NCBI RefSeq assembly: GCF_900142515.1
Contig: NZ_FRBC01000001.1
Coordinates: 132,115 to 196,114, forward strand
Origin: Pseudoselenomonas ruminantium
GTDB taxonomy: Bacteria > Bacillota > Negativicutes > Selenomonadales > Selenomonadaceae
Reading direction: 5' to 3'
DNA length: 64,000 nt
Of this stretch, positions 538 to 13,050 are shown one piece after another. Each line of letters begins with the position of its first letter. Positions within the stretch are counted from its first letter, which is position 1. Both the position numbers and the translations under genes were made by a program. Below the pieces are notes generated by a model. The model was not told the origin of the DNA and ran no database searches. It saw nothing but the letters and a program-made list of their open reading frames with translations.

Positions 538-663
538 CAAATTATTGTCGGATTTAGAGGTTTTTTTATTTTTTTGACGAATATTTTTCATAATCGGGTA
601 GTCATATGAAGCCTTATGGAATACAGATCCTCTGAGAAGTGTGCATAGTGAGGGGGAATCTTG

Positions 664-1755
664 TTGAGAAAGATACTCATATTGGTGGGACTGGTCTTTG
701 CCGCAGCAATCACAGGCATCTTTCTGAGCAAAGACAGTTGGACGGAGACGGACGTTACTGCTAAAACCACAAAGGTGGGCCTGCTCCTGAGCGGGAATCA
801 TGATGACAGGAGCTATTGTCAGTCTCATTATGAAGCCATAAAATCCTTGCAGGATGACCTGAACCTGAACATCATCTGCCGGGAGAATGTCCCTAACGCA
901 TGTTATGCAACGATTGTCGAATTGGTTCAACGGGAAGGCTGCGAAATCATCGTGGGGGCTTCTTTTGATTATGGCAGTGATATGAAGAAAGCGGCAAACG
1001 CCTTTCAGAATGTCTATTTCCTGCATGCGGGCGGCTTGGACAGGAAGGGAAATCTATCCACTTATTTTGGCCGGATGTATCAGGCACGGTATCTGTCCGG
1101 CATTGTCGCAGGGATGGAGTCCAAAACAGGCAGGATCGGTTATGTGGCAGCCTTTCCCATTGTCCAGGTCATTCGGGGAATCAATGCTTTCACCTTAGGG
1201 GCGCGCAGTGTTCGCCCTGATGCGCAGGTGTATGTGCGTTATTGCGGTTCCTGGACGGAAGATCTGCCGGCTGAGCGTGAAAGTCAGGCTCTGCTGGATA
1301 ATCATCCCATTGATGTGCTGGCCATGCACACCAATTCTCTGGCACCGAATTGGGTGGCGGAGAGAAGAGGCATATATTCCATTGGCTATAACTGGGACAA
1401 TCGGGATATGTTTTCGGATAAATACCTGACGGCCAGCGCATGGGATTGGAGCGGATATTACCGCCAGCAGATATTGGCGTGTCTGACGGGAAAATTCTAT
1501 GGAAGCAACCAATGGATTGCCATGGAAGATGGTGTCATAAAATTGGCCGATTATTCCCCGCAGGTCAGTGAGCAGACAAAAGAAGTGGTCAGAGCCGCAC
1601 AGGAACGGCTTCGGAGCCGGGAGTTTGACGTGTTTTATGGACCAATCCGGGATAACCAGGGCAGGCTCCGCGTGGAAGCGGGGGAAGCGATGTCAGATGG
1701 AGCGATGCTGAATGCATTGGACTGGTATGTGGAGGGCGTTTCTGTTGAACAGTAG
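664..1755 (+). CDS. Membrane-tethered BMP-family substrate-binding protein (first copy)
   Basis: This is a periplasmic binding protein of the BMP/PnrA-like fold (basic membrane protein family), a family that usually delivers nucleosides to ABC importers. One hydrophobic segment (about residues 3-22) precedes a roughly 340-residue extracytoplasmic domain. The hallmark BMP stretch YFGRMYQARYLSGIVAGM, followed by TGRIGYVAAFP and INAFTLGAR, is clear. There is no lipobox Cys after the hydrophobic segment, so the protein is probably anchored by an uncleaved helix rather than lipid. The start is one of two adjacent TTG codons (661 or 664); 664 has better spacing from AGGGGG at 651-656. No ABC permease or ATPase gene accompanies it. 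It is followed, with overlap, by a paralogue and then a hybrid kinase, which suggests a ligand-sensing role (inference). The ligand is unknown. Confidence 0.82.
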   Translation: MRKILILVGLVFAAAITGIFLSKDSWTETDVTAKTTKVGLLLSGNHDDRSYCQSHYEAIKSLQDDLNLNIICRENVPNACYATIVELVQREGCEIIVGASFDYGSDMKKAANAFQNVYFLHAGGLDRKGNLSTYFGRMYQARYLSGIVAGMESKTGRIGYVAAFPIVQVIRGINAFTLGARSVRPDAQVYVRYCGSWTEDLPAERESQALLDNHPIDVLAMHTNSLAPNWVAERRGIYSIGYNWDNRDMFSDKYLTASAWDWSGYYRQQILACLTGKFYGSNQWIAMEDGVIKLADYSPQVSEQTKEVVRAAQERLRSREFDVFYGPIRDNQGRLRVEAGEAMSDGAMLNALDWYVEGVSVEQ

Positions 1756-2842
1756 AGCATGGAAACAGAGTAGGATTCCCCTGCTGCTGGTGGCGTTCAT
1801 GGTCATGGCTATCATTGGCGTGATCCAGAGCTTCCGGCTGCCCAGTGAGGAGCGTCAGGTTACTGTCGGCGTGATCCTGGCCAGTTCGCTGGCCGATAGA
1901 GGCTGGAATGAAGGCCATTACAGCAGTCTGCTGCATGCCTGTCAGGGGCACGGCTGCAGGCTTATCCTGCGTGAATTTGTGCCGGAAAAGCAAAGTGAGC
2001 TGCATACGGCGGTGGAAGAGTTGATCCAAGACGGAGCACAGGCCATCTTCCTGACCAGTTTTGGTTATGGCAATTATGTGAGCGGGCTGGCCGATCGATA
2101 CCCCGGCGTTGCGTTCTTCAGCATTTCTGGCAAGGGGAATGCCAAAAACAGCACGTATTATTTTTCTCGTTTGTATCAGGCGCGCTACCTGGCGGGAATC
2201 GTGGCCGGGGCTGCCAGCCGGACGGGCGTATTAGGTTTTGTGGCAGGGATGCCGAATCCTCAGACCAATCGTAACATCAATGCCTATGCCAAAGGGATAC
2301 GCCGGGCAAATCCGGAGGCGAAGCTGATCGTTCATTTTATCGGCAGCTGGGATGATGAGCAGAAAGAACGGAAAAGTGTGGCCAGCATGGCCGCCGAAGG
2401 GGCAGATGTCATCACCTATCATACGGATAAGCCTTATGCCATAAGGGAGGCAGAGGCGCGGAACCTTTTTTCCACAGGTTATGATGCCCAATATGAGCAG
2501 TATTCCGAACGCTTCCTGACAGCTGCCCTGTATGATTGGGATGTGGTTTATGAAAAAGTGCTGGGGGATTATTTGAGCGGCAGGGTGAATATGTCGCAGG
2601 GGTACTGGCTGGATATGGAAGAGAAGGGGGTACGGCTCAGTGAGCTGTCACCATTGGTGTCGGAGCAGACGAAGGCTTTGGTCGATGCAGAATATCAGCG
2701 CATCCGCAGGGAAGGTGTTTTCACCGGCGTCATTTATGATAATAAAGGCCGGCTTCGCTGCGATGAGGGAGAACGCATCAGTGACCGTCAGCTGTTCAAT
2801 GGAATGGAATGGTTTGTCGAGGGGGTAGCGGTTCATGATTAG
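1745..2842 (+). CDS. Membrane-tethered BMP-family substrate-binding protein (second copy)
   Basis: This paralogue of the preceding gene has the same layout: a short basic N-terminus, one hydrophobic anchor (about residues 11-27), and a BMP-family periplasmic domain with [31 protein letters not shown] and [14 protein letters not shown]. There is again no lipobox Cys. I chose TTG 1745 because GGAGG at 1731-1735 sits 9 nt upstream; the ORF overlaps the previous gene by 11 nt, pointing to translational coupling. The C-terminus, [17 protein letters not shown], mirrors the first copy's MSDGAMLNALDWYVEGV, so the pair arose by duplication. Its 3' end overlaps the hybrid kinase start by 8 nt, which strongly links the receptors to the kinase. 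The ligand cannot be read from sequence. Confidence 0.82.
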
Positions 2843-5573
2843 TCTTGCTGCCCTGAAGGGGAAACGGATTGCTGCCCTGATGATGGCTATTTTCGGTCTG
2901 GTGTTGCTGCTGGTTGGTTTCATGTTCAGGGATCGGATGAGTGACCTCCTTATCATGTATACCGAAAAGCAGACCAGGCGCCAGGCGGAGGCTTTGGCTG
3001 GCCAGGCGGCGGAGAATCTGGAGTCGGAATTGAAGAACCTGGGCTACATCGCCTCGAAGATTGAGGCTGCTCCCGAGGAAATGGACAGGCTGGTGCCATT
3101 TATTTTCAATGAGAAGGGCGTCCGGCATGGTCTGCTTGCTCTCGATGGGCAGGCCATATATGGGGAAAAGCTTCCTTTTGGCCAATATGATGGCATACAG
3201 ACTTCCTTTCGCGGGTTTAAGGCCATCACTTTTGTACAGGGCTCAGGACTGTTGTTTACCTGTCCAATCTTTCATGGAGAGAATATCAAATACGTCTTAT
3301 ATCGTTTCTTCCCTCAGGAAACCCTGATGGATAATTTCTCGTTGCACTGCTATGAGGACATCGGCAGGGCTATGGTGGTCAGCCGTGAGGAGGATATCAT
3401 CATTCCTTTTGCCCAGAGTGATGACGAAGATATCGCGTTCATGCAACGCGAGGAAACCAAGGCATTCTATCGTTCCATGCATCGGGAGATGGAAGTCTCT
3501 GTGGCCGCTGCCCGTACGTATCATTCTCCCCATGGTGATCTGATCATGTTTGAGGCGGAAATCCCGGGGACGGATTATCTGCTGGCTGGTTTTGTACCTC
3601 AGGCCAAAGCTTCGGAGGGGATTGAGCGCATCACGCTGCTGGTGGTTTATGTGTTCGGTTTGTTGATGATACTGGTCATCATTGGTGCCTTGTATCTGAT
3701 GCAGGCCCAGCTGAAGATCCGGGAAAGTGATGCGCTCAAAGAAGCGAAAGCCCAGGCTGAAGAGGCATCCAAGGCCAAGAGCGATTTCCTGGCCAATATG
3801 TCTCATGAAATCCGCACCCCCATCAATACCATCATCGGTATGAATGAAATGATCTTGCGGGAGTGTCGGGAGAAAAATATCCGGGAGTATGCCGGGAATG
3901 TGAAAAACGCTGGCCGGACACTTCTGGGACTGGTCAATCAGATCCTTGATTTCTCCAAGATTGAGGCTGGCAAGATTGAAATCATCCCGACTGAGTATGA
4001 TCTGACATCCGTTATCAACGATCTGGTGAATATGCTCCAGCCACGTGTACAGGAAAAGGGGCTTCAACTGGAACTGGACTTCGACAAGACTCTGCCGGCA
4101 GTCCTTTATGGCGATGAGATGCGCATCAGGCAGATCATCACCAACATCCTGACCAATGCGGTGAAATACACGGAAAAAGGAAAGATTTCCTTCTCTATGG
4201 GGTATGAACGGATCCCGGAGGATCCGGATAGCGTATTTTTGCGGGTGACGGTTCAGGATACCGGCATTGGCATCCAGGAAAAGGATATGACGAAGCTGTT
4301 CGTAGAGTTTGAACGCATAGAAGCAAAGCGTAATCGTCATATCGAGGGAACTGGCCTGGGCATGGCGATTACCATGAATCTGTTGAAGCTGATGGGAAGC
4401 ACCCTGCAGGTGGACAGCATCTATGGGCATGGTTCTGTTTTCTCCTTCGTGCTGAAACAGAAAGTGATAAACTGGGAGCCCTTAGGCGACTATGTAGCTT
4501 CTTATCATGAAAGTCTGGACAGTCAGGAAAATTATCAGGAAAAATTCACGGCTCCTGATGCCCGCGTGCTGGTGGTGGATGATAACCATATGAATCTGGT
4601 GGTATTCCAGAATCTGTTGAAGCGGACGAAGATACAGATCGATACAGCGGAGAGTGGCGATGCCTGTCTGGAAATTTGCCAAGGGCAAAAATACGACGCT
4701 ATTTTTCTTGACCATATGATGCCGCATAAGGATGGGATCGAGACGCTATGCGAACTGCGGGAACAAGCGGATAATCCCAATCTGCTGACCCCGACGATCT
4801 GTCTTACGGCTAATGCTTTGGCCAATGCGCGGGAACAGTATATAAAGGCGGGGTTTGATGATTATCTGACCAAGCCCATCGATTCAAATAAATTAGAGAA
4901 CATGCTGTTGAAATATCTGCCGCAGGAAAAGATCTTAGCAGCAGATGATGAGAAAACACAAGACGAGGAAATGATGCAGGTACCGGATAAGCTGAAGCCT
5001 TTGGAAGGGGAGGATTGGCTGGACCTTTCTCTGGGCATCAAGAATAGCGGTTCGTCCGAAGCGTATCTGCCGCTGCTCAAAATCTTCTACGAGTCCTTGG
5101 AAGAAAAAGCTGCGGAGATAGAAGATTTTTATGACAGGCAGGACTGGAAGAACTATACCATCAAGGTGCACGCCCTGAAGAGTTCGGCGCGCATCATCGG
5201 GGCAACTGCCTGTGGCGAAGAGGCACAGCTGTTGGAAAATGCAGGCAAGAGCGGGGACATGGAATATATCCTCGCACATCATGATGATTTCCTGGCAATG
5301 TGCAGAAGTTTCAAGGCCCCATTGGCAGAAGTATTTGCCGCAGATGCCGCAGAACTGGCGGAGAAGCCAGAGGCGGATGATACCTTGTTGGAAAGTGTTT
5401 TTGAGGAAATGCGGACGGCTGCTGAAAGCATGGATTGTGACTGTTTGGAGGCAATAATCGGGGAGATGGAGGAGTATCGTATCCCCGGGAAAGAGGCAGA
5501 GCGTTGGGAGAAGTTGAAAGATGCGGCAGCGCGTTTTGATTACGATGCCATCGTGAAGCTTTTGCAGCAGTGA
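2835..5573 (+). CDS. Hybrid sensor histidine kinase (sensor-HisKA-HATPase-REC-HPt)
   Basis: This is an inner-membrane phosphorelay kinase of 912 residues. TM1 lies at about 11-31, an extracytoplasmic sensor at 33-264 (PDC/Cache-like by layout, no clear family signature) and TM2 at 265-288. The HisKA H-box SHEIRTPIN has His324. The HATPase domain shows [19 protein letters not shown] and GTGLGMAI. The receiver spans about 577-690, with VVDDN, phospho-acceptor Asp626 in FLDHMMP and LTKPI. The HPt domain has HALKSSAR with His779. A further helical, acidic 80-residue tail follows. The gene starts 8 nt inside the end of the second BMP gene, so it is translationally coupled to it. A likely route is ligand-bound BMP protein to the sensor domain, as in LuxP-LuxQ or TorT-TorS; this is inference from gene order. 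Confidence 0.9.
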
Positions 5574-5616
5574 AGAGGTCTGACCGTTAGCTTATAGATT
5601 GCATGGGGTGAAAAAT

Positions 5617-6501
5617 ATGAGTGATAGCAAAGAAATCAAAGAAGTCAAAGAAGTCCAGGACAGCATACAGAGCGCAGCAGGCAAAGAAAAACAAGAGAAT
5701 AAAGATGATCCAGTGATTCAGGAGAATCAGGAGTCCCAGGAAAAAGATGGAAAGAACGTTGTGATTGTCATGTGCAAATACAGCGTGGTGGTGAAAGGAA
5801 TTGAGCGGAAGCTGAAGGAACTTGGCTGCAATGTTTCCATTGTTACGCAGGAACAGGGAACGATTCCCAAAATGAATGATAAAGGAAAACAACTGTTTAT
5901 CCTCTACCTGCCCAATAAGATCACGGAAGACGTGCTCAAACTCAACTGGCTGGAGCATATTTATGCGGTGATCCAGGAAATGAATGGGGATGTCATTGTC
6001 ATTGGGGACAAATGCGATCGCGATGATCTGGCGGGACGGGTTTTTGATATGCTTCATGTAGGCTGGCTGGACCGGCCGTTGAAGATGGAAGATCTGGAAC
6101 TGGCCGTGACGGAAGGGATATTGCCAGGAGCTCGTGATAAGAGGAGAAAGCATATCCTGATTGTGGATGATGATCCATCCTATGCGAGAATGGTGCGGGA
6201 GTGGCTGAAGGATGTCTATCAGGTCAGCATCGTTACAGCGGGCATACAGGCAATCACTTTTTTGGCTAAGAATACAGTGGCGCTGATCCTATTGGATTAC
6301 GAAATGCCGGTGGTAGACGGGCCACAGGTATTCCAAATGCTCCGGCAGGATCCGTCTACGCAGGGGATTCCGGTGGTGTTCCTGACCGGTGTTGGCACCA
6401 AGGAGCAGGTGGAGCGTGTGCTGCAGCTGAAGCCGAATGGCTATGTCCTCAAATCAACCACGAGAGAGAAGCTGCTGAGCTATCTGCAATCAAAACTCTG
6501 A
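5617..6501 (+). CDS. Response regulator with degenerate N-terminal and intact C-terminal receiver
   Basis: This 294-residue protein has a highly charged Lys/Glu/Gln-rich N-terminal leader (1-45). A receiver-like alpha/beta domain (about 46-165) lacks the acidic pocket and the phospho-acceptor Asp. A canonical receiver follows at about 175-294, with IVDDDPS, Asp227 in LLDYEMP, FLTGVG and the conserved Lys in YVLKS. There is no DNA-binding or enzymatic output domain, so it may act by protein contacts or as a phosphate sink in the relay. The start ATG 5617 follows a GGGGTG box with 6-nt spacing; an upstream in-frame TTG at 5599 lacks a box. It lies 43 nt after the first kinase and before the symporter fusion. 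Confidence 0.83.
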   Translation: MSDSKEIKEVKEVQDSIQSAAGKEKQENKDDPVIQENQESQEKDGKNVVIVMCKYSVVVKGIERKLKELGCNVSIVTQEQGTIPKMNDKGKQLFILYLPNKITEDVLKLNWLEHIYAVIQEMNGDVIVIGDKCDRDDLAGRVFDMLHVGWLDRPLKMEDLELAVTEGILPGARDKRRKHILIVDDDPSYARMVREWLKDVYQVSIVTAGIQAITFLAKNTVALILLDYEMPVVDGPQVFQMLRQDPSTQGIPVVFLTGVGTKEQVERVLQLKPNGYVLKSTTREKLLSYLQSKL

Positions 6502-6562: not shown

Positions 6563-8836
6563 ATGGAAACGATTATGCAAATCAACGGGGTGGTCAACAA
6601 CTTTGTTTGGGGCCCTCCCGGCCTTACCTTGCTGGTGGGGACAGGCATTTATCTGACATTTCTGTTGGGGATGCCTCAAATCCGCTATTTTTTTCCGGCC
6701 ATAGCTGAAGTCTTCAGCTTTCGGGAAAAAAGTGAGGAGGATAAATCCATATCTTCTTTCGCGGCGATGGTTACGGCGATGGCTGCGACGGTGGGAACCG
6801 GCAATGTGGCGGGAGTGGCCACGGCCCTTCATCTGGCTGGCCCCGGGGCACTTGTCTGGATGCTGATTTCGGCTTTTTTTGGCATGTGTACCAAGTTCGC
6901 AGAGGTAACACTGGCTGTCTATTACAGGAAAAGGGATTCTCAGGGCGATTGGCGTGGCGGTCCCATGTATATCCTGGAGTATGGTCTGGGCGAATGGGGC
7001 GGTCTATGGAAGCACATCGGGAAGCTGCTGGCAATGTTGTTCGCGCTCCTCACGTTCCTGGCTTCTTTTGGCATTGGTGCGGCAGTTCAGGCGAACTCAG
7101 CTGCTGAAGCGTTGTTCATGGGTTGGAATCTGGATCATTTATACAGCGGCGTTACGCTGGCTGTCTTGGTTGGTTTGGTCATCATCGGCGGATTCGCCAA
7201 TCTTTCCCGGGTGACAATGCTTGTCGTTCCCTTCATGATCGTTTTTTACATGGTGAGTGTCGGTATCATTTTCTTGAGCTGCTCAGCCCAGATTCCGGCG
7301 ATTATCGCTGAAGCGTTCCGCATGGCCTTCTGCGGCCCGGATTCATCGGTCATCGCTGGCGGCGTGGCTGGTTGGGCCGTGATGGAAGCCGTTCAGAGAG
7401 GAATCGCCCGTGGCGTGTTCTCCAATGAGGCCGGAATGGGATCTGCCCCTATGGCTCATGCTACAGCCGATAACGCCAATCCTGTTCAGCAGGGACTTTA
7501 TGGCATCTTTGAGGTGTTTCTGGATACTTTTGTCATCTGTACCATAACGGGCATTGTCATCCTGGTGACCGGTACGATGGCATACGCACCTGATCTGACA
7601 GGGGCGCAGCTGGCACTACTGGCCTTTGAACTTGCCTTGGGAACGGAAGGCAAGTACATCCTGGCTCTTTGTCTGATGCTTTTTGCTTTCACGACAATCC
7701 TGGGCTGGTATTGGTACGCAGAAACGGCGATGACGTATCTGTTTGGTGTGCGGTTCAAGGCCATCCTGAAATTGCTCTTGCTGGCGATGATTTTCATCGG
7801 CGCCTCCGGTGCGCAGTTGTTCGATGCTTCCGGCAATGAGTTCATGAATAATATATGGAATATCTCAGATACCTTGAACGGGCTCATAGCTGTGCCGAAT
7901 CTGATTGGCCTGTTGCTTCTTTCCTTTACGCTCAGAAGACTCGTGAAGGATTATGATGCGCAGCGGGAAGCGTGTACAGTGGAAAACGTACCGGCTGCAG
8001 CGGAGAAAAAGCCCATGTCCGGGGAGCTGCGGCAGTTGCTGATCGTGTCTGTTTGTGCGGCCTTGCTGCCGATAGCCATAGTCACCTTTGGCAGCGGCCC
8101 GCAGGACACTGTCCGTCAGCAGGATGTTTCCCTGCAAAGGGTTCTGGATAAGGGCAGTCTTATCTTTGGCTTTGATGTTGACTTTCCGCCTATGAGTTTT
8201 ATCGATGAAAACAGGGAGTTTGTCGGATTTGACGTCGATCTGGGGCGGGAAATCTGTTCCAGACTTGGGGTTGGTTTCGTAGCGCGGCCTATTGTTTGGG
8301 GAAACAAGGAAAAGGAATTGGATGAGGAAATGATCGATTGTATTGGTGGTATGTCTGTGATAACCGAACCTGGCATAGAACTGAGTATGTCAGAACCGTA
8401 TATAAAAGAGAATCTGGTTTTCGTCATCCGTGGTGACAGCAGCGTGGTATGGATGAGTGACCTCAAGGGCAAGAAAGTTGGCATGCAGGCTGGTTCGACA
8501 ACGCAGGATGCATTGTACAGCTCAGATATCCGCAAGGATATCACGGTGGTGCCCCTGGATGATAACATGGCGGTCCTCCGGCAAGTGCAGGCTGGAAAAC
8601 TGGATGCCGGTCTGGTGGATTCACTGACGGCTTGTTATTTTATCGGTTCAAGCAGCGAACGGTATTTTGTCCTTTCCGACAGCCTTAGGGAAGAGGATTT
8701 GGCTATAGGCTTCAGGAAAGAGGACAGGGGACTGCGGGACAAGGTACAGAAAATCATCCGCGACATGAAAGCGGATGGAACCTTGGGCAGGATTTCCAAA
8801 AAGTGGTTCGGCAGTGATGTTACGATAGTCCGGTAA
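6563..8836 (+). CDS. AGCS-type amino acid:cation symporter fused to a C-terminal SBP_bac_3 domain
   Basis: Residues 1 to about 475 are a complete member of the alanine/glycine:cation symporter family. They show the N-terminal WGPPGLTLLVGTGIYLT, the TVGTGNVAGVATAL and GGPMYILEYGLG blocks, and the FSNEAGMGSAPMAHA block. A further hydrophobic helix (about 489-511) leads into an extracytoplasmic type-3 solute-binding domain (about 520-757) with GFDVDFPPMSFIDENREFVG followed by FDVDLGREI, and GSTTQDAL. Stand-alone AGCS proteins are roughly 450-490 residues, so the 757-residue fusion is unusual. In the SBP part, the Arg that holds the amino-acid carboxylate in HisJ-type proteins appears to be Pro in the segment before SMSEPY. 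The gene sits between two hybrid kinases, so a transporter-receptor (transceptor) role is plausible but inferred. Start ATG 6563 follows a GGGGG box at 6554-6558. Confidence 0.88.
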   Translation: METIMQINGVVNNFVWGPPGLTLLVGTGIYLTFLLGMPQIRYFFPAIAEVFSFREKSEEDKSISSFAAMVTAMAATVGTGNVAGVATALHLAGPGALVWMLISAFFGMCTKFAEVTLAVYYRKRDSQGDWRGGPMYILEYGLGEWGGLWKHIGKLLAMLFALLTFLASFGIGAAVQANSAAEALFMGWNLDHLYSGVTLAVLVGLVIIGGFANLSRVTMLVVPFMIVFYMVSVGIIFLSCSAQIPAIIAEAFRMAFCGPDSSVIAGGVAGWAVMEAVQRGIARGVFSNEAGMGSAPMAHATADNANPVQQGLYGIFEVFLDTFVICTITGIVILVTGTMAYAPDLTGAQLALLAFELALGTEGKYILALCLMLFAFTTILGWYWYAETAMTYLFGVRFKAILKLLLLAMIFIGASGAQLFDASGNEFMNNIWNISDTLNGLIAVPNLIGLLLLSFTLRRLVKDYDAQREACTVENVPAAAEKKPMSGELRQLLIVSVCAALLPIAIVTFGSGPQDTVRQQDVSLQRVLDKGSLIFGFDVDFPPMSFIDENREFVGFDVDLGREICSRLGVGFVARPIVWGNKEKELDEEMIDCIGGMSVITEPGIELSMSEPYIKENLVFVIRGDSSVVWMSDLKGKKVGMQAGSTTQDALYSSDIRKDITVVPLDDNMAVLRQVQAGKLDAGLVDSLTACYFIGSSSERYFVLSDSLREEDLAIGFRKEDRGLRDKVQKIIRDMKADGTLGRISKKWFGSDVTIVR

Positions 8837-8857: not shown

Positions 8858-11659
8858 ATGGATGTGAAAAAGGAAAATAAAGCCGGCTCCGTCCTGAAGA
8901 AAGTAGATATGACCACAATCATCATCCTGTTTTTCCTGGCCGTGGTCATGGCTTATTACTCCATGCTTCAGTCTGAGATGAGAGAGAAGATTATCGTCAA
9001 CAGAGAGCTGGTGGCGACCAAGTCAGCGGAGCAGATAAACAATTATCTCTCCACAGGCGTTGACATCATAAGAGTGGCGTCCCATAGCCTTGACAATATG
9101 ATACGTGAAGGCAGGGCACATTCGGAAATGCGCGATATGCTCGTAAGCCAGTCTGCTGCAGTAGTACAGATCACCTCTGGCAATTCGACGGGGATATACG
9201 CTCTGGTGGAGGATGATTGGCTCGATGGAATTGGTTGGGTCCCCGATGCCGATTATGCTCCCAAGGAACGCCCCTGGTACAGTGGCGCGATGGCGAATAT
9301 CGGGAAAGTGACTATTGTCGGTCCATATGTTGACGCAGAAACGCATACCATGATGATCACGTTAGCTAAGTCGCTCTGCGACGTAAAGAGCGTAGCAGCG
9401 ATAGACCTATCGCTGGAAAATCTGCAGACGATGACGGAGGAACTGAGTAAACGCACCGAGTCGGATATCGAGATCGTCATTGACCGGAATTATCAGGTTA
9501 TCGCGCATTCCGATAGGGAAGAGGTTGGCAAAAGTTATATCAAGGAGGAGGGAACCTTTGGCAGGGCGCTTATCGATAAGCTGCGTTCGGCGGATAAAAA
9601 TTACTTTTCGTTCCATTTCAATGATGCGGAGTACATTGTTTACATGGTGCCGGTGGGAAACAGCTGGTTATGTTTGTCTGTGTTCGATGCAACATCTGCC
9701 TTTGCTCAGCTCAGGCGCTTGTTTATCCTGACCATCATCATATCGGTGCTGGTCATTTCCATAATCCTTGTCTTCATGGCGCGTTATGAAAAGAAAAATC
9801 TTCTGGCGCAGGAGTACAACCGAAAAGCGGAGAGCGCTGCTGCCGCCAGCCAGGCGAAGTCTGCTTTCTTGTCGAACATGTCACATGAGATACGGACACC
9901 GATCAATGCGGTGCTGGGCATGAACGAGATGATCCTGCGTGAGAGCAGCGAGCAAAACGTGATCGAGTATGCCGAGAATATCCACACAGCGGGCAATACG
10001 CTGCTCGGAATCATCAACGATATCCTGGACTTCTCCAAAATAGAGGCAGGGAAGCTGGAAATCATCCCTGTGGATTATGACCTTTCCTCCATGCTTAACG
10101 ATTTGGTGAATATGATCCGCATCCGGGCTGATGTCAAAGGGCTGGCTCTTGAGGTAGAATTCGACCAGGAGACCCCCAAGCTGCTCTTTGGTGATGAGGT
10201 TCGTGTCAAGCAGGTCATCACCAATATCCTGACCAATGCGGTGAAATATACGGAAAAAGGTACAGTAACCTTTTCGGTGAGTTTCGAGCGGATCCCGGAG
10301 GAGCCGGACAATGTGCTGCTCTATGTGGAGATCAAGGATACCGGTATCGGCATCAAGCCGGAGGATATGGAGAAATTGTTTTCCAAGTTTGAGCGCATCG
10401 AAGAAAAGCGTAACCGCAATGTGGAAGGCACTGGACTGGGTATGGCCATCACGTTGAACCTGCTGGAAAAGATGGGTTCCTCCTTGCAGGTGGAAAGTGT
10501 CTATGGCGTTGGTTCCACGTTCTTCTTCAAGCTGCGGCAGCGTGTGGTCAAATGGGAGCCGTTGGGGGATTACAAGGCGTCCTATCAGGCTCTGCTGAAA
10601 GGGCATAAGAAGTATCGTGAGAAATTCACGGCTCCGGAGGCATTGGCTCTGGTGGTGGATGATAATCCGATGAACCTGACGGTGTTCAAGGGATTGATCA
10701 AGAAGACGCAGATTCAGATCGATACGGCGAATGATGGCGATGAAGGGCTTTTGCTGGCCAGGGAGAAAAAATACGATATCATCTTCCTCGACCATATGAT
10801 GCCGCGCAAGGACGGTATTGAGACCTTGCACGAGCTGCAGGCGCAGGAAGACGGGCCGAATATGGATACGCCGGTGATCAGCCTGACTGCCAATGCCATC
10901 TCCGGCGCACGGGAGCAGTACATGGCGGCTGGTTTCCACGACTATCTGACCAAGCCCATAGATGCCGATAAATTGGAGGATATGTTACTGGATTATCTGC
11001 CGAAGGAAAAAATCCAGAAAGCAGGAGCAGAGGTGGCAGCGGCACAGGAAACCCTGGAGGTTCCGGACAGTCTGGCACCGCTTAAAGGAGCAGGCTGGCT
11101 GGATCTGGCCCAGGGCATAAAGAACAGCGGTTCAGTCGAGGCCTATCTGCCTTTGTTGCAGATATTCTATGAATCCGTTGATGAGATGGCAGAGACAATC
11201 GAGGGCTTTTATGAGAATCGGAATCTCAAAGATTATACGATCAAGGTTCATGCGTTGAAGAGTTCAGCAAGGATCATCGGTGCAAAGGACTTCGGTGAGG
11301 AAGCGCAGATGCTGGAAAATGCTGGCAAAGCTGGAAATATGGACTATATCCGTATGCATCATGAAAGTTTTCTGGAGACATATCGGAGTTTCAAGGTTCA
11401 GTTGGCAGAGGTCTTTGCGGCAGGGGAGACGGCAGTAGAAGATGAGAAGCCGGAAGCAGACAGGGATTTGATGGAAGGTGTCTATGAAGAAGTGCGCGCG
11501 GCTGCGGAGGATATGGACTGCGATCGCCTGGAAGATATTTTTGCTGAGATGGAGGAGTATCGTATCCCGGCGCAGGATGCCGAACTCTATAAAAAACTCA
11601 AGCAGGCTGCCGAGCATTTTGACTACGAGAGCATCCTGTCATTGCTCGACAATGGCTGA
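8858..11659 (+). CDS. Hybrid sensor histidine kinase with dCache sensor (sensor-HisKA-HATPase-REC-HPt)
   Basis: This 933-residue protein is a close paralogue of the kinase at 2835-5573 in its cytoplasmic half but has a different sensor. TM1 is at about 16-34. A double-Cache extracytoplasmic domain (35-285) carries the typical ERPWYSGA and YVDAETHTMMITLAKSL motifs, and TM2 is at 287-309. The H-box [19 protein letters not shown] has His343. The ATPase motifs [19 protein letters not shown] and GTGLGMAI follow, then a receiver with Asp645 in FLDHMMP and an HPt with His798 in HALKSSAR. The same helical tail as in the first kinase ends the protein. An AGGAGG box precedes ATG 8858, and the gene is 21 nt after the symporter fusion. 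dCache domains of the ERPWY type often bind amino acids or other small metabolites, so the symporter neighbour is suggestive. Confidence 0.92.
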   Translation: MDVKKENKAGSVLKKVDMTTIIILFFLAVVMAYYSMLQSEMREKIIVNRELVATKSAEQINNYLSTGVDIIRVASHSLDNMIREGRAHSEMRDMLVSQSAAVVQITSGNSTGIYALVEDDWLDGIGWVPDADYAPKERPWYSGAMANIGKVTIVGPYVDAETHTMMITLAKSLCDVKSVAAIDLSLENLQTMTEELSKRTESDIEIVIDRNYQVIAHSDREEVGKSYIKEEGTFGRALIDKLRSADKNYFSFHFNDAEYIVYMVPVGNSWLCLSVFDATSAFAQLRRLFILTIIISVLVISIILVFMARYEKKNLLAQEYNRKAESAAAASQAKSAFLSNMSHEIRTPINAVLGMNEMILRESSEQNVIEYAENIHTAGNTLLGIINDILDFSKIEAGKLEIIPVDYDLSSMLNDLVNMIRIRADVKGLALEVEFDQETPKLLFGDEVRVKQVITNILTNAVKYTEKGTVTFSVSFERIPEEPDNVLLYVEIKDTGIGIKPEDMEKLFSKFERIEEKRNRNVEGTGLGMAITLNLLEKMGSSLQVESVYGVGSTFFFKLRQRVVKWEPLGDYKASYQALLKGHKKYREKFTAPEALALVVDDNPMNLTVFKGLIKKTQIQIDTANDGDEGLLLAREKKYDIIFLDHMMPRKDGIETLHELQAQEDGPNMDTPVISLTANAISGAREQYMAAGFHDYLTKPIDADKLEDMLLDYLPKEKIQKAGAEVAAAQETLEVPDSLAPLKGAGWLDLAQGIKNSGSVEAYLPLLQIFYESVDEMAETIEGFYENRNLKDYTIKVHALKSSARIIGAKDFGEEAQMLENAGKAGNMDYIRMHHESFLETYRSFKVQLAEVFAAGETAVEDEKPEADRDLMEGVYEEVRAAAEDMDCDRLEDIFAEMEEYRIPAQDAELYKKLKQAAEHFDYESILSLLDNG

Positions 11660-11685: not shown

Positions 11686-13050
11686 ATGGGGTACTGGATT
11701 GTTGTTGTTGATGATGAAACACTGACGCTGACGCATATAAAGCGTATCCTGCGGGAGCAGGATATGCGTGTCAGCTGCCTGCGTTCCGGGCGGGAGCTCT
11801 TGAAATTCATGACGAAAAATATACCCGATCTGATTTTGTTGGATATACAAATGACAGAAATGGACGGATTTGAAACCTATCAGGAACTGCGCCGGATGGA
11901 AGAACATGCGGCGCGGAAACCCACACCAATCATATTCCTGAGCGGCATAGAGACAAGTGAGGCAGAGCGGCGCAGCCTGGAACAGGGAGCTTCCGATTTT
12001 ATCCGTAAACCTGTCCATAAGGATATCCTCATCAAACGAATCATGAATGCCGTCAAGCATACTAAGGACATCGAAAATCTGAAAGAGGAAGCGGCTCTCG
12101 ACAAGCTGACTGGTTTTTTGAATAAAACAGCAGGCACCAGCAAGCTGACAAAACTCTGTGCGGAGCGGTCCGGTATGCTGATGATTCTGGATCTTGACAA
12201 CTTCAAGCTGGTCAACGATCTCTATGGCCATAGCATGGGCGACAAGTTCTTGGTGGCGTTTGCTGACGTAATCAGACGGAACATCCGGGCACAGGATGTC
12301 ATGGTAAGGGTCGGCGGGGACGAGTTCATGGGTTTTTTCGGTTATATGAACGATGAAACTGCGCTGTCCAGCCTTCATCACAGACTGAATGGTGAACTGC
12401 ACAAAGAAGCGGTCAGATTGGCAGGGGCTGGTTTTGATATTCCGCTGAACATTTCCATCGGTGCAGCTTTGGTACCGGAATACGGCCGGGACTACGAGAT
12501 CCTGTTTTCCCTGGCAGACAGTGCCCTTTACAAGGTGAAACAAAACGGCAAGAACGGCAGCAGGATATATGGACAGGAAGGAGAGCATGACCTATCCGGA
12601 GATGATGATATCAAAAAGGAGTTTGCCCGCATCACGCAGATTGTCGAGGGACGGCATGGCAGAGGGGGCGCACTTTTGCTGAACCTCGAGCAGTTTTCTC
12701 TTATCTATCGTTTCATCCGTCAGTTCTACAAGCGATACGGCGGCATGATCGTCAAGCTGATGTTCATTCTGTCAGCAGAAGGTTCTGATGGGGAACGTCC
12801 GTACAGACTGAAGGATGTTGCGGAAAAATTCGGCCTCTGCCTGCAGGATTCATTGCGGAAAAGCGATATGATACTTCGGCACAAGTCAAATCAGTTCTTT
12901 GTGCTCTTGCAGAATCTTTCCGAGGAAGATTTTCCCACTGTGTTTCGCCGTATTATGAATGCGTGGGAGGCAGAAGAACATCATACCGGTATCCATATCG
13001 AATATCTTATGGAATATGTGATCTATGAAAAAGAAAGCTATGACAAGTAA
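11686..13050 (+). CDS. Response regulator with GGDEF domain and a second degenerate GGDEF-like domain
   Basis: The 454-residue cytosolic protein has a receiver (1-125; VVDDE, Asp53 in LLDIQM, FLSG, FIRKPV). A GGDEF domain follows (about 140-300), with LDLDNFKLVND and an intact GGDEF signature at 210-214. A C-terminal unit of about 150 residues resembles a decayed GGDEF domain, because LLLNLEQFSLIYRFI aligns with the LILDLDNF strand-helix, but it has no signature. The intact signature predicts diguanylate cyclase activity controlled by phosphorylation, so this is probably the output of the upstream kinases. I see no RxxD inhibitory site before the GGDEF motif. The gene is the last of the cassette and is followed by a bidirectional terminator. 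Confidence 0.88.
   Translation: MGYWIVVVDDETLTLTHIKRILREQDMRVSCLRSGRELLKFMTKNIPDLILLDIQMTEMDGFETYQELRRMEEHAARKPTPIIFLSGIETSEAERRSLEQGASDFIRKPVHKDILIKRIMNAVKHTKDIENLKEEAALDKLTGFLNKTAGTSKLTKLCAERSGMLMILDLDNFKLVNDLYGHSMGDKFLVAFADVIRRNIRAQDVMVRVGGDEFMGFFGYMNDETALSSLHHRLNGELHKEAVRLAGAGFDIPLNISIGAALVPEYGRDYEILFSLADSALYKVKQNGKNGSRIYGQEGEHDLSGDDDIKKEFARITQIVEGRHGRGGALLLNLEQFSLIYRFIRQFYKRYGGMIVKLMFILSAEGSDGERPYRLKDVAEKFGLCLQDSLRKSDMILRHKSNQFFVLLQNLSEEDFPTVFRRIMNAWEAEEHHTGIHIEYLMEYVIYEKESYDK

Follow-up and report, generated by a model that had tools for sequence, protein, structure and literature searches.

Gene Organization of the Locus

The window, i.e., the whole stretch of 64,000 nucleotides that was analysed, harbors on its forward strand an operon in which a symporter gene and a solute-binding protein (SBP) gene share a single reading frame. 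The features on which the analysis relies are the following.

661-1755, forward strand: first Bmp/PnrA-like binding protein (Pfam), belonging to the same operon and found also at loci L040 and L044
1712-2842, forward strand: second Bmp/PnrA-like binding protein (Pfam), overlapping the first by 44 nucleotides and likewise found at L040 and L044
2835-5573, forward strand: HK1, a hybrid histidine kinase (Pfam) whose sensor part is dissimilar to that of HK2 (sequence comparison)
5599-6501, forward strand: response regulator upstream of the fusion, with REC at residues 186-296 (Pfam)
6563-8836, forward strand: AGCS-SBP fusion gene, a single open reading frame (stop included) for 757 amino acids, present in 15 of the 189 genomes of the family
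6563-7972, forward strand: AGCS Na+:amino-acid symporter part, residues 1-470 (PF01235 at 54-470; Pfam, NCBIfam), with AgcS (6cse, E 5.8e-98) as solved homologue
8036-8092, forward strand: extra transmembrane helix between both domains, residues 492-510 (hydropathy; alignment with the N-terminal signal or anchor of stand-alone SBPs)
8159-8812, forward strand: putatively extracytoplasmic SBP_bac_3 domain, residues 533-750 (Pfam and alignment)
8369-8371, forward strand: codon of Pro603, the residue found where LAO has the carboxylate-binding Arg77 (alignments, with the role of the Arg from PMC5740067)
8858-11659, forward strand: HK2, a dCache hybrid histidine kinase (HisKA, HATPase_c, REC, Hpt; Pfam), starting 21 nucleotides past the fusion stop
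9254-9406, forward strand: amino-acid motif of the HK2 dCache (Y133, R138, W140, Y141, Y157, D159, D183; alignment with PctA 5ltx, conservation in 21 rows)
11686-13050, forward strand: response regulator with GGDEF, a predicted diguanylate cyclase (Pfam)

The fusion gene is thus flanked by hybrid kinases on both sides (2835-5573 and 8858-11659), as the original prediction had it. SBPs work with ABC transporters; no ABC permease or ATPase was found by Pfam among the seven window proteins scanned.

The overlapping Bmp/PnrA pair (661-2842) runs straight into HK1 (2835-5573), so that the same operon contains a second apparent SBP-kinase sensor set. The sensor part of HK1 has no significant similarity to the HK2 dCache and matches no Pfam family over the cut-off; its N-terminal 300 residues (2835-3770) may represent a sensor domain, so far unrecognised, that serves the Bmp proteins. 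The response regulator at 5599-6501 also carries about 180 N-terminal residues before REC that fall in no Pfam family.

Architecture and Reality of the Fusion

The symporter part matches Na_Ala_symp (PF01235) at residues 54-470 with an E value of 2.8e-118 and 396.1 bits (cut-off 24), and the protein also passes the agcS model TIGR00835 (411.1 bits, cut-off 272.65); these full-length matches place it in the AGCS family (TC 2.A.25). The C-terminal part matches SBP_bac_3 (PF00497) at 533-750 (E 3e-28, 98.7 bits, cut-off 26.4), covering the profile nearly end to end (positions 1-131 of 132), and it remains below the cut-off of the NCBIfam SBP models. The helix at 492-510, with a mean hydropathy of 2.55, is the only over-threshold hydrophobic stretch C-terminal of the symporter, and the loop preceding it (456-491) contains seven K/R residues so that, according to the positive-inside rule, the SBP domain would be placed outside the membrane. 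A structure model of the fusion, built on a shallow alignment (mean pLDDT 34), was not used and gives no contact geometry.

The same uninterrupted frame is present in 15 genome assemblies of two genera, with 69-74% identity. Among the 8 of 19 pairs listed, the dN/dS values (Nei-Gojobori) are 0.07-0.13 for the AGCS part, 0.09-0.26 for the SBP part, 0.14-1.42 for the linker (two undefined) and 0.23-1.05 for the extra helix (one undefined), the synonymous distance being close to saturation in some pairs. They show that purifying selection acts on both the AGCS and the SBP domains. The possibility that two genes had been joined by a frameshift, a chimaera or an assembly error at about 8030-8130, which had been named beforehand as the case that would undo the fusion, was not borne out: no point in its favor was found, the frame is continuous in 15 assemblies and both sides are constrained, so that it was ruled out and we lend it hardly any credence. 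The fusion is therefore confirmed as real, with a full AGCS symporter, an extra helix and a full SBP_bac_3 domain in one polypeptide. On this point the original prediction, which had proposed a symporter joined through an additional helix to a binding domain, was correct, since the frame at 6563-8836 is intact, both Pfam domains are complete and the helix is recovered by hydropathy.

Distribution of the Fusion and Divergence of the AGCS Part

The fusion was found in 13 of the 22 genomes of the genus (the other nine lack it) and in two genomes of another genus, which together make the 15 of the family; five named Selenomonas records carrying the same protein with 69-70% identity are already within these genomes. 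At the level of the class, a search with the full-length profile returned 15 of 380 genomes at E 1e-124 or better, all from the same family, and at the level of the phylum 15 of 398 genomes matched, with 4 known fusions and 11 proteins consisting of AGCS only (the class, family and genus sets overlap). The search for the joint architecture that had been recommended for this locus thus extended the fusion to 15 family genomes and disclosed none further among the class and phylum genomes, where the best two candidates per genome were scored and a distant independent fusion could escape. Five of the 24 genomes of another order gave a match, in all cases to AGCS only, and none of the 234 matching PLSDB records covers 80% of the fusion query. 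No report of an AGCS-SBP fusion was found in the open-licence literature searched, which does not prove its absence from print.

The fused AGCS sequences form a single clade (100/100), so that within the genomes sampled the fusion has a single origin. This clade falls outside the AGCS sequences of its own family; since the nearest AGCS branch has a bootstrap of just 73-88, acquisition of the AGCS part from another family is not claimed.

The host genome (3.1 Mb) contains four AGCS matches, the fusion included, which is thus not the sole AGCS copy. Out of 109 columns near-invariant in 25 stand-alone AGCS sequences, 81 are identical in all 15 fused ones; other near-invariant columns are fixed otherwise in the fused clade, with A, G or T for N at 173, M297 for I, A386 for G and K403 for R. 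The fused AGCS of the window shares 44% identity with the solved AgcS, versus 52% and 55% for two stand-alone AGCS proteins. This divergence and the altered columns could change the substrate or the coupling. As for the fold, we take AGCS proteins to be LeuT-like and not elevator transporters.

These data also bear on the idea that the fusion is accidental, i.e., that an AGCS gene landed in frame before the SBP gene of the operon and that the two parts work independently. The low identity to AgcS would agree with it, as would the fast evolution of the linker and of the helix, whose dN/dS reaches 1.4 and 1.05, respectively, in some pairs. However, the fused AGCS clade has been maintained in 15 genomes of two genera, and no split version of the fused AGCS was met in the searches of the family (189 genomes) and of the class (380 genomes, best two candidates per genome); we judge an accident very improbable.

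Origin of the SBP Domain

A profile of residues 487-757 retrieved, from the 189 family genomes, the 15 fused proteins and six stand-alone SBPs (317.7-389.3 bits), the next protein scoring 200.6 bits. When the stand-alone sequences were included in the profile and the 380 genomes of the class were searched, the same 21 proteins were obtained, followed by a drop from 425.5 to 244 bits. In the phylogenetic tree of the SBPs, the fused ones constitute one clade (100/99), and the stand-alone SBP of genome G187 is the sister of this clade (100/100).

The G187 protein is encoded (locus L040) in an operon having the order Bmp-Bmp-HK1-SBP-HK2-HK3-RR/GGDEF, which, compared with that of the window, is devoid of the symporter and of the small response regulator and possesses one additional kinase. 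The complete gene order of the window is found in G005 (L044), the remaining fused loci keeping less of the upstream region. The other five stand-alone SBPs (G145, G149, G153, G155 and G159) are lipoprotein-like on visual inspection, the next gene in each case encoding a protein of about 506-514 amino acids that combines an HK2-type sensor with HD_5 (Pfam, 5/5). These stand-alone SBPs are the closest relatives that were found for the SBP domain of the fusion, which descends from a free-standing SBP whose gene directly precedes that of one particular dCache sensor; the domain thus seems to stem from a signalling pair and not from a nutrient importer. The extra helix aligns with the N-terminus of the stand-alone SBPs, and thus the helix joining both domains corresponds to the former N-terminal signal or anchor of the SBP.

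As a minor observation, the additional kinase of the G187 operon, HK3 (L040:12082-15078), shows no sensor domain of Pfam over residues 1-395.

The Binding Pocket

The Arg96/102 equivalent to LAO Arg77 is described as salt-bridging the carboxyl group of the ligand (PMC5740067). The alignment with AncQR and 11 ordinary SBPs from the family places Pro603 of the window at the position of LAO Arg77, and the suspected replacement of the canonical Arg by Pro was thus verified. Arg occupies this column in 11/11 ordinary and in 5/5 HD-linked SBPs; Ser is found in G187, and the fused proteins carry Ala (seven), Pro (five), Asp, Val or Ser (one each), with Arg in 0/15. Since G187, the sister of the fused clade, is already without it, the carboxylate-binding Arg was lost on the branch leading to both, i.e., before the fusion. 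The G187 and fused proteins also have in common a one-residue deletion in the Pro603 loop. The fused copy L006 has an Arg two positions N-terminal of this column, so that a shifted Arg is possible in this protein.

The residues D538, F541, W579, S598, T646 and D686, equated with LAO Asp11, Tyr14, Phe52, Ser72, Thr121 and Asp161 by motif spacing rather than by a pairwise LAO alignment, are kept in 15/15 fused and 6/6 stand-alone SBPs; S598 and D686 correspond to the two places (Ser72 and Asp161) that serve the amino group of the ligand. In the ordinary SBPs of the family, Asp is found at the place of Ser598 in 11/11 cases, and Tyr or Phe at 541. The domain is therefore a PF00497 member by fold that has the Ser/Asp for the amino group and not the canonical Arg of the amino-acid-binding SBP_bac_3 proteins; in other words, the amine half of the pocket is retained and the carboxylate half is missing. 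Amine-binding dCache domains, which evolved from amino-acid sensors, are reported to have lost the carboxylate Arg in a similar way (PMC10104139). The retention of the amino-group and aromatic residues in the absence of this Arg suggests a probable ligand that has no free alpha-carboxylate, such as an amine; alternatively, the domain is now a ligand-poor docking part. The cadaverine reported in Selenomonas peptidoglycan (PMC10628300) is no more than a possible lead to the ligand.

The state of the pocket is relevant to the possibility that the tethered SBP captures a substrate at high affinity and passes it to the symporter, as proposed for the TAXI-GltS fusions (PMC12344293), which offer a published parallel. 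The intact and constrained AGCS and SBP domains and the 81 near-invariant AGCS columns kept in all fused sequences speak for it; on the other hand, the absence of the Arg from 15/15 fusions, with five different replacements, would be odd for a protein delivering amino acids, and in G187 the sister SBP is a separate protein of a kinase operon whose HK1-to-HK2 interval contains no symporter gene. The AGCS fold assumed above is a further point against it. That an elevator may be needed for such a partnership is suggested in the excerpted text of PMC12344293. On the whole, we regard this kind of SBP-dependent secondary transport as unlikely.

The dCache Partner and Its Association with the SBP

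Sensor regions at least 50% identical to that of HK2 (residues 1-327) occur in exactly the 21 of the 189 family genomes that possess the SBP lineage, the next best being 40%. In all of them (21/21) the SBP and sensor genes are adjacent, whether the SBP is fused or not. The sensor start codon lies 19-31 nucleotides past the SBP stop in 19 loci and 20 nucleotides past it in G029 and G037 (from coordinates); four of the 19 loci have an additional, earlier possible start, which overlaps the SBP gene by 11 or 62 nucleotides. The output attached to this sensor is a hybrid kinase in 16 cases and HD_5 in five (BLAST to HK2 or Pfam), G011 being counted among the 16 on the strength of an open frame truncated at the contig edge. 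The association between SBP and sensor has thus persisted through the exchange of the output and the acquisition of a transporter, even if the 21 genomes are related and do not represent 21 independent events. Downstream of HK2, the gene of the response regulator with GGDEF is found in 11 of the 13 fused loci that extend far enough, the exceptions being G029 and G037; the loci of G011 and G012, which end too early, were left out of the 13. In G037 (L041:5678-8537), HK2 is encoded in two separate frames of 774 and 164 amino acids, reflecting either decay or a sequencing error.

Among the matches of the HK2 dCache are PctA and other chemoreceptors for amino acids. The domain carries the PctA motif (Y121, R126, W128, Y129, Y144, D173) in the 5ltx alignment, and R138, W140, Y141, Y157, D159 and D183 are kept in 21/21 sensors, with Y or F at 133; the roles of the dCache_1AA motif residues are those given in PMC10104139. 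The match to PctA and the conserved motif suggest that the HK2 dCache is itself probably an amino-acid sensor. The Foldseek matches of the weak HK2 sensor model (pLDDT 63) to PctA, Mlp24 and Tlp3 agree with this result and add little to it.

A dCache with its own amino-acid motif would also suit a different arrangement, in which the SBP domain is a ligand-free docking tether holding a normal symporter beside the kinase, and the signal is the flux or the depletion of amino acids at the dCache. The free drift of the Arg position (P, A, D, V, S) and the deletion in the same pocket loop point in this direction; nevertheless, the six pocket residues from D538 to D686 kept in 15/15 fused proteins speak against an empty pocket, and we consider the tether quite unlikely.

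Proposed Function of the Fusion

The reading we prefer, with a probability of slightly less than 60%, is that of a transceptor-like module, in which a sensory SBP has been grafted onto an AGCS symporter and would report to the neighbouring dCache kinase and to c-di-GMP. The SBP domain, outside the membrane, would meet the dCache of the adjacent HK2 and tune the HK2 response; a phosphorelay from HisKA to REC and Hpt of HK2 and then to the response regulator with GGDEF of the next gene would set the c-di-GMP level. The symporter would carry an amino acid of the alanine/glycine type, and the covalent tie to the SBP might bring the transport state or the flux into the same sensor complex. The SBP itself would bind an amine or a different ligand devoid of a free alpha-carboxylate, unless it has turned into a ligand-poor docking domain, and the amino acid would be read by the dCache. 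The succession of SBP, dCache kinase and response regulator with GGDEF, together with the HD_5 domain (HD-GYP-like, by eye) of the cousins, suggests SBP-dCache control of c-di-GMP by analogy with ArtI and STM1987 of Salmonella, where the binding protein and the dCache c-di-GMP receptor are both needed for the response to L-arginine (PMC8846402); differently from the fusion, in which the SBP is tied to the symporter in the membrane and is without the Arg, ArtI is a separate periplasmic protein.

The original prediction had seen the SBP domain as a receptor or a gate rather than a delivery protein; the receptor part of this idea is supported by the co-inheritance and adjacency of SBP and sensor while output and transporter change. 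Its argument that a secondary Na+ symporter needs no SBP was too strong, given that TAXI-GltS, of which fusions are known, has been proposed to be a symporter that depends on an SBP (PMC12344293). A sensory role also has its counterpoints: the HK2 dCache, with a complete amino-acid motif, could work without the SBP, and the conservation of both fusion domains also fits plain transport. Moreover, the adjacency of sbp and kinase genes is no proof of interaction, as illustrated by AgtB-AgtS and PA4985-AruS of P. aeruginosa, for which the excerpted text reports no detected interaction (PMC11113362). Further points on this side are the two fused loci without the downstream GGDEF gene, the nine genomes of the genus that have no fusion, the possible shifted Arg of L006 and the relatedness of the 21 genomes. 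A bolder version of the transceptor-like module, rather unlikely in our opinion, is that it represents the first symporter transceptor equipped with an SBP: after a shift of its specificity from amino acids to amines (e.g., the diamines of Negativicutes peptidoglycan), a sensory SBP would have been captured by an AGCS protein, so that one membrane protein would report the amine level and the amino-acid flux to a dCache amino-acid kinase setting c-di-GMP.

Comparison with Known Systems

The nearest fused SBP-symporter that was found is TAXI-GltS and the nearest symporter transceptor is CbrA; the AGCS-SBP fusion belongs to neither. With the former it shares a solute-binding domain covalently joined to a usually self-sufficient Na+ amino-acid symporter (PMC12344293). 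In TAXI-GltS, however, a TAXI SBP stands at the N-terminus of an ESS/GltS transporter predicted to be an elevator, and the SBP studied binds glutamate (PMC12344293), whereas the fusion (PF00497 and PF01235) has SBP_bac_3 at the AGCS C-terminus, has lost the carboxylate Arg and lies beside kinase genes. CbrA-type SLC5-histidine kinases, which resemble it in tying a Na+ symporter-type domain to two-component signalling, include the kinase in the same polypeptide, with no SBP described in the excerpted texts, and CbrA transports histidine (PMC7096432, PMC13022988). In the window, instead, the polypeptide of the symporter contains an SBP, while HK2 is encoded by the following gene, 21 nucleotides downstream, outside the SLC5-STAC-kinase architecture.

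SBPs also work with TRAP and TTT transporters, the GltS system having been proposed lately, and whether they pair with other kinds of secondary transporters is presented as an open question (PMC12344293). The proteins described here can be arranged in a series beside one constant dCache partner, from the free SBP that has the Arg, through the free SBP that has lost it, to the fused SBP that has lost it; this makes the choice between receptor and delivery, as well as the capture of a transporter by a sensor pair, testable on living proteins. The AGCS-SBP family is also a natural test of SBP pairing in a transporter fold that is presumably different. If the sensory reading is true, the fusion may act in some Selenomonas as a carrier as well as a sensor of small nitrogen compounds.

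The stand-alone SBP/dCache-HD_5 pairs share with the fusion the SBP lineage, the sensor family and the adjacency of the genes, and differ from it in having no symporter, in the presence of the Arg and in an HD_5 output instead of a hybrid kinase. The five pairs (L080, L081, L082, L083 and L084), with a lipoprotein-like SBP carrying the canonical Arg, are simple two-gene candidates for amino-acid control of c-di-GMP.
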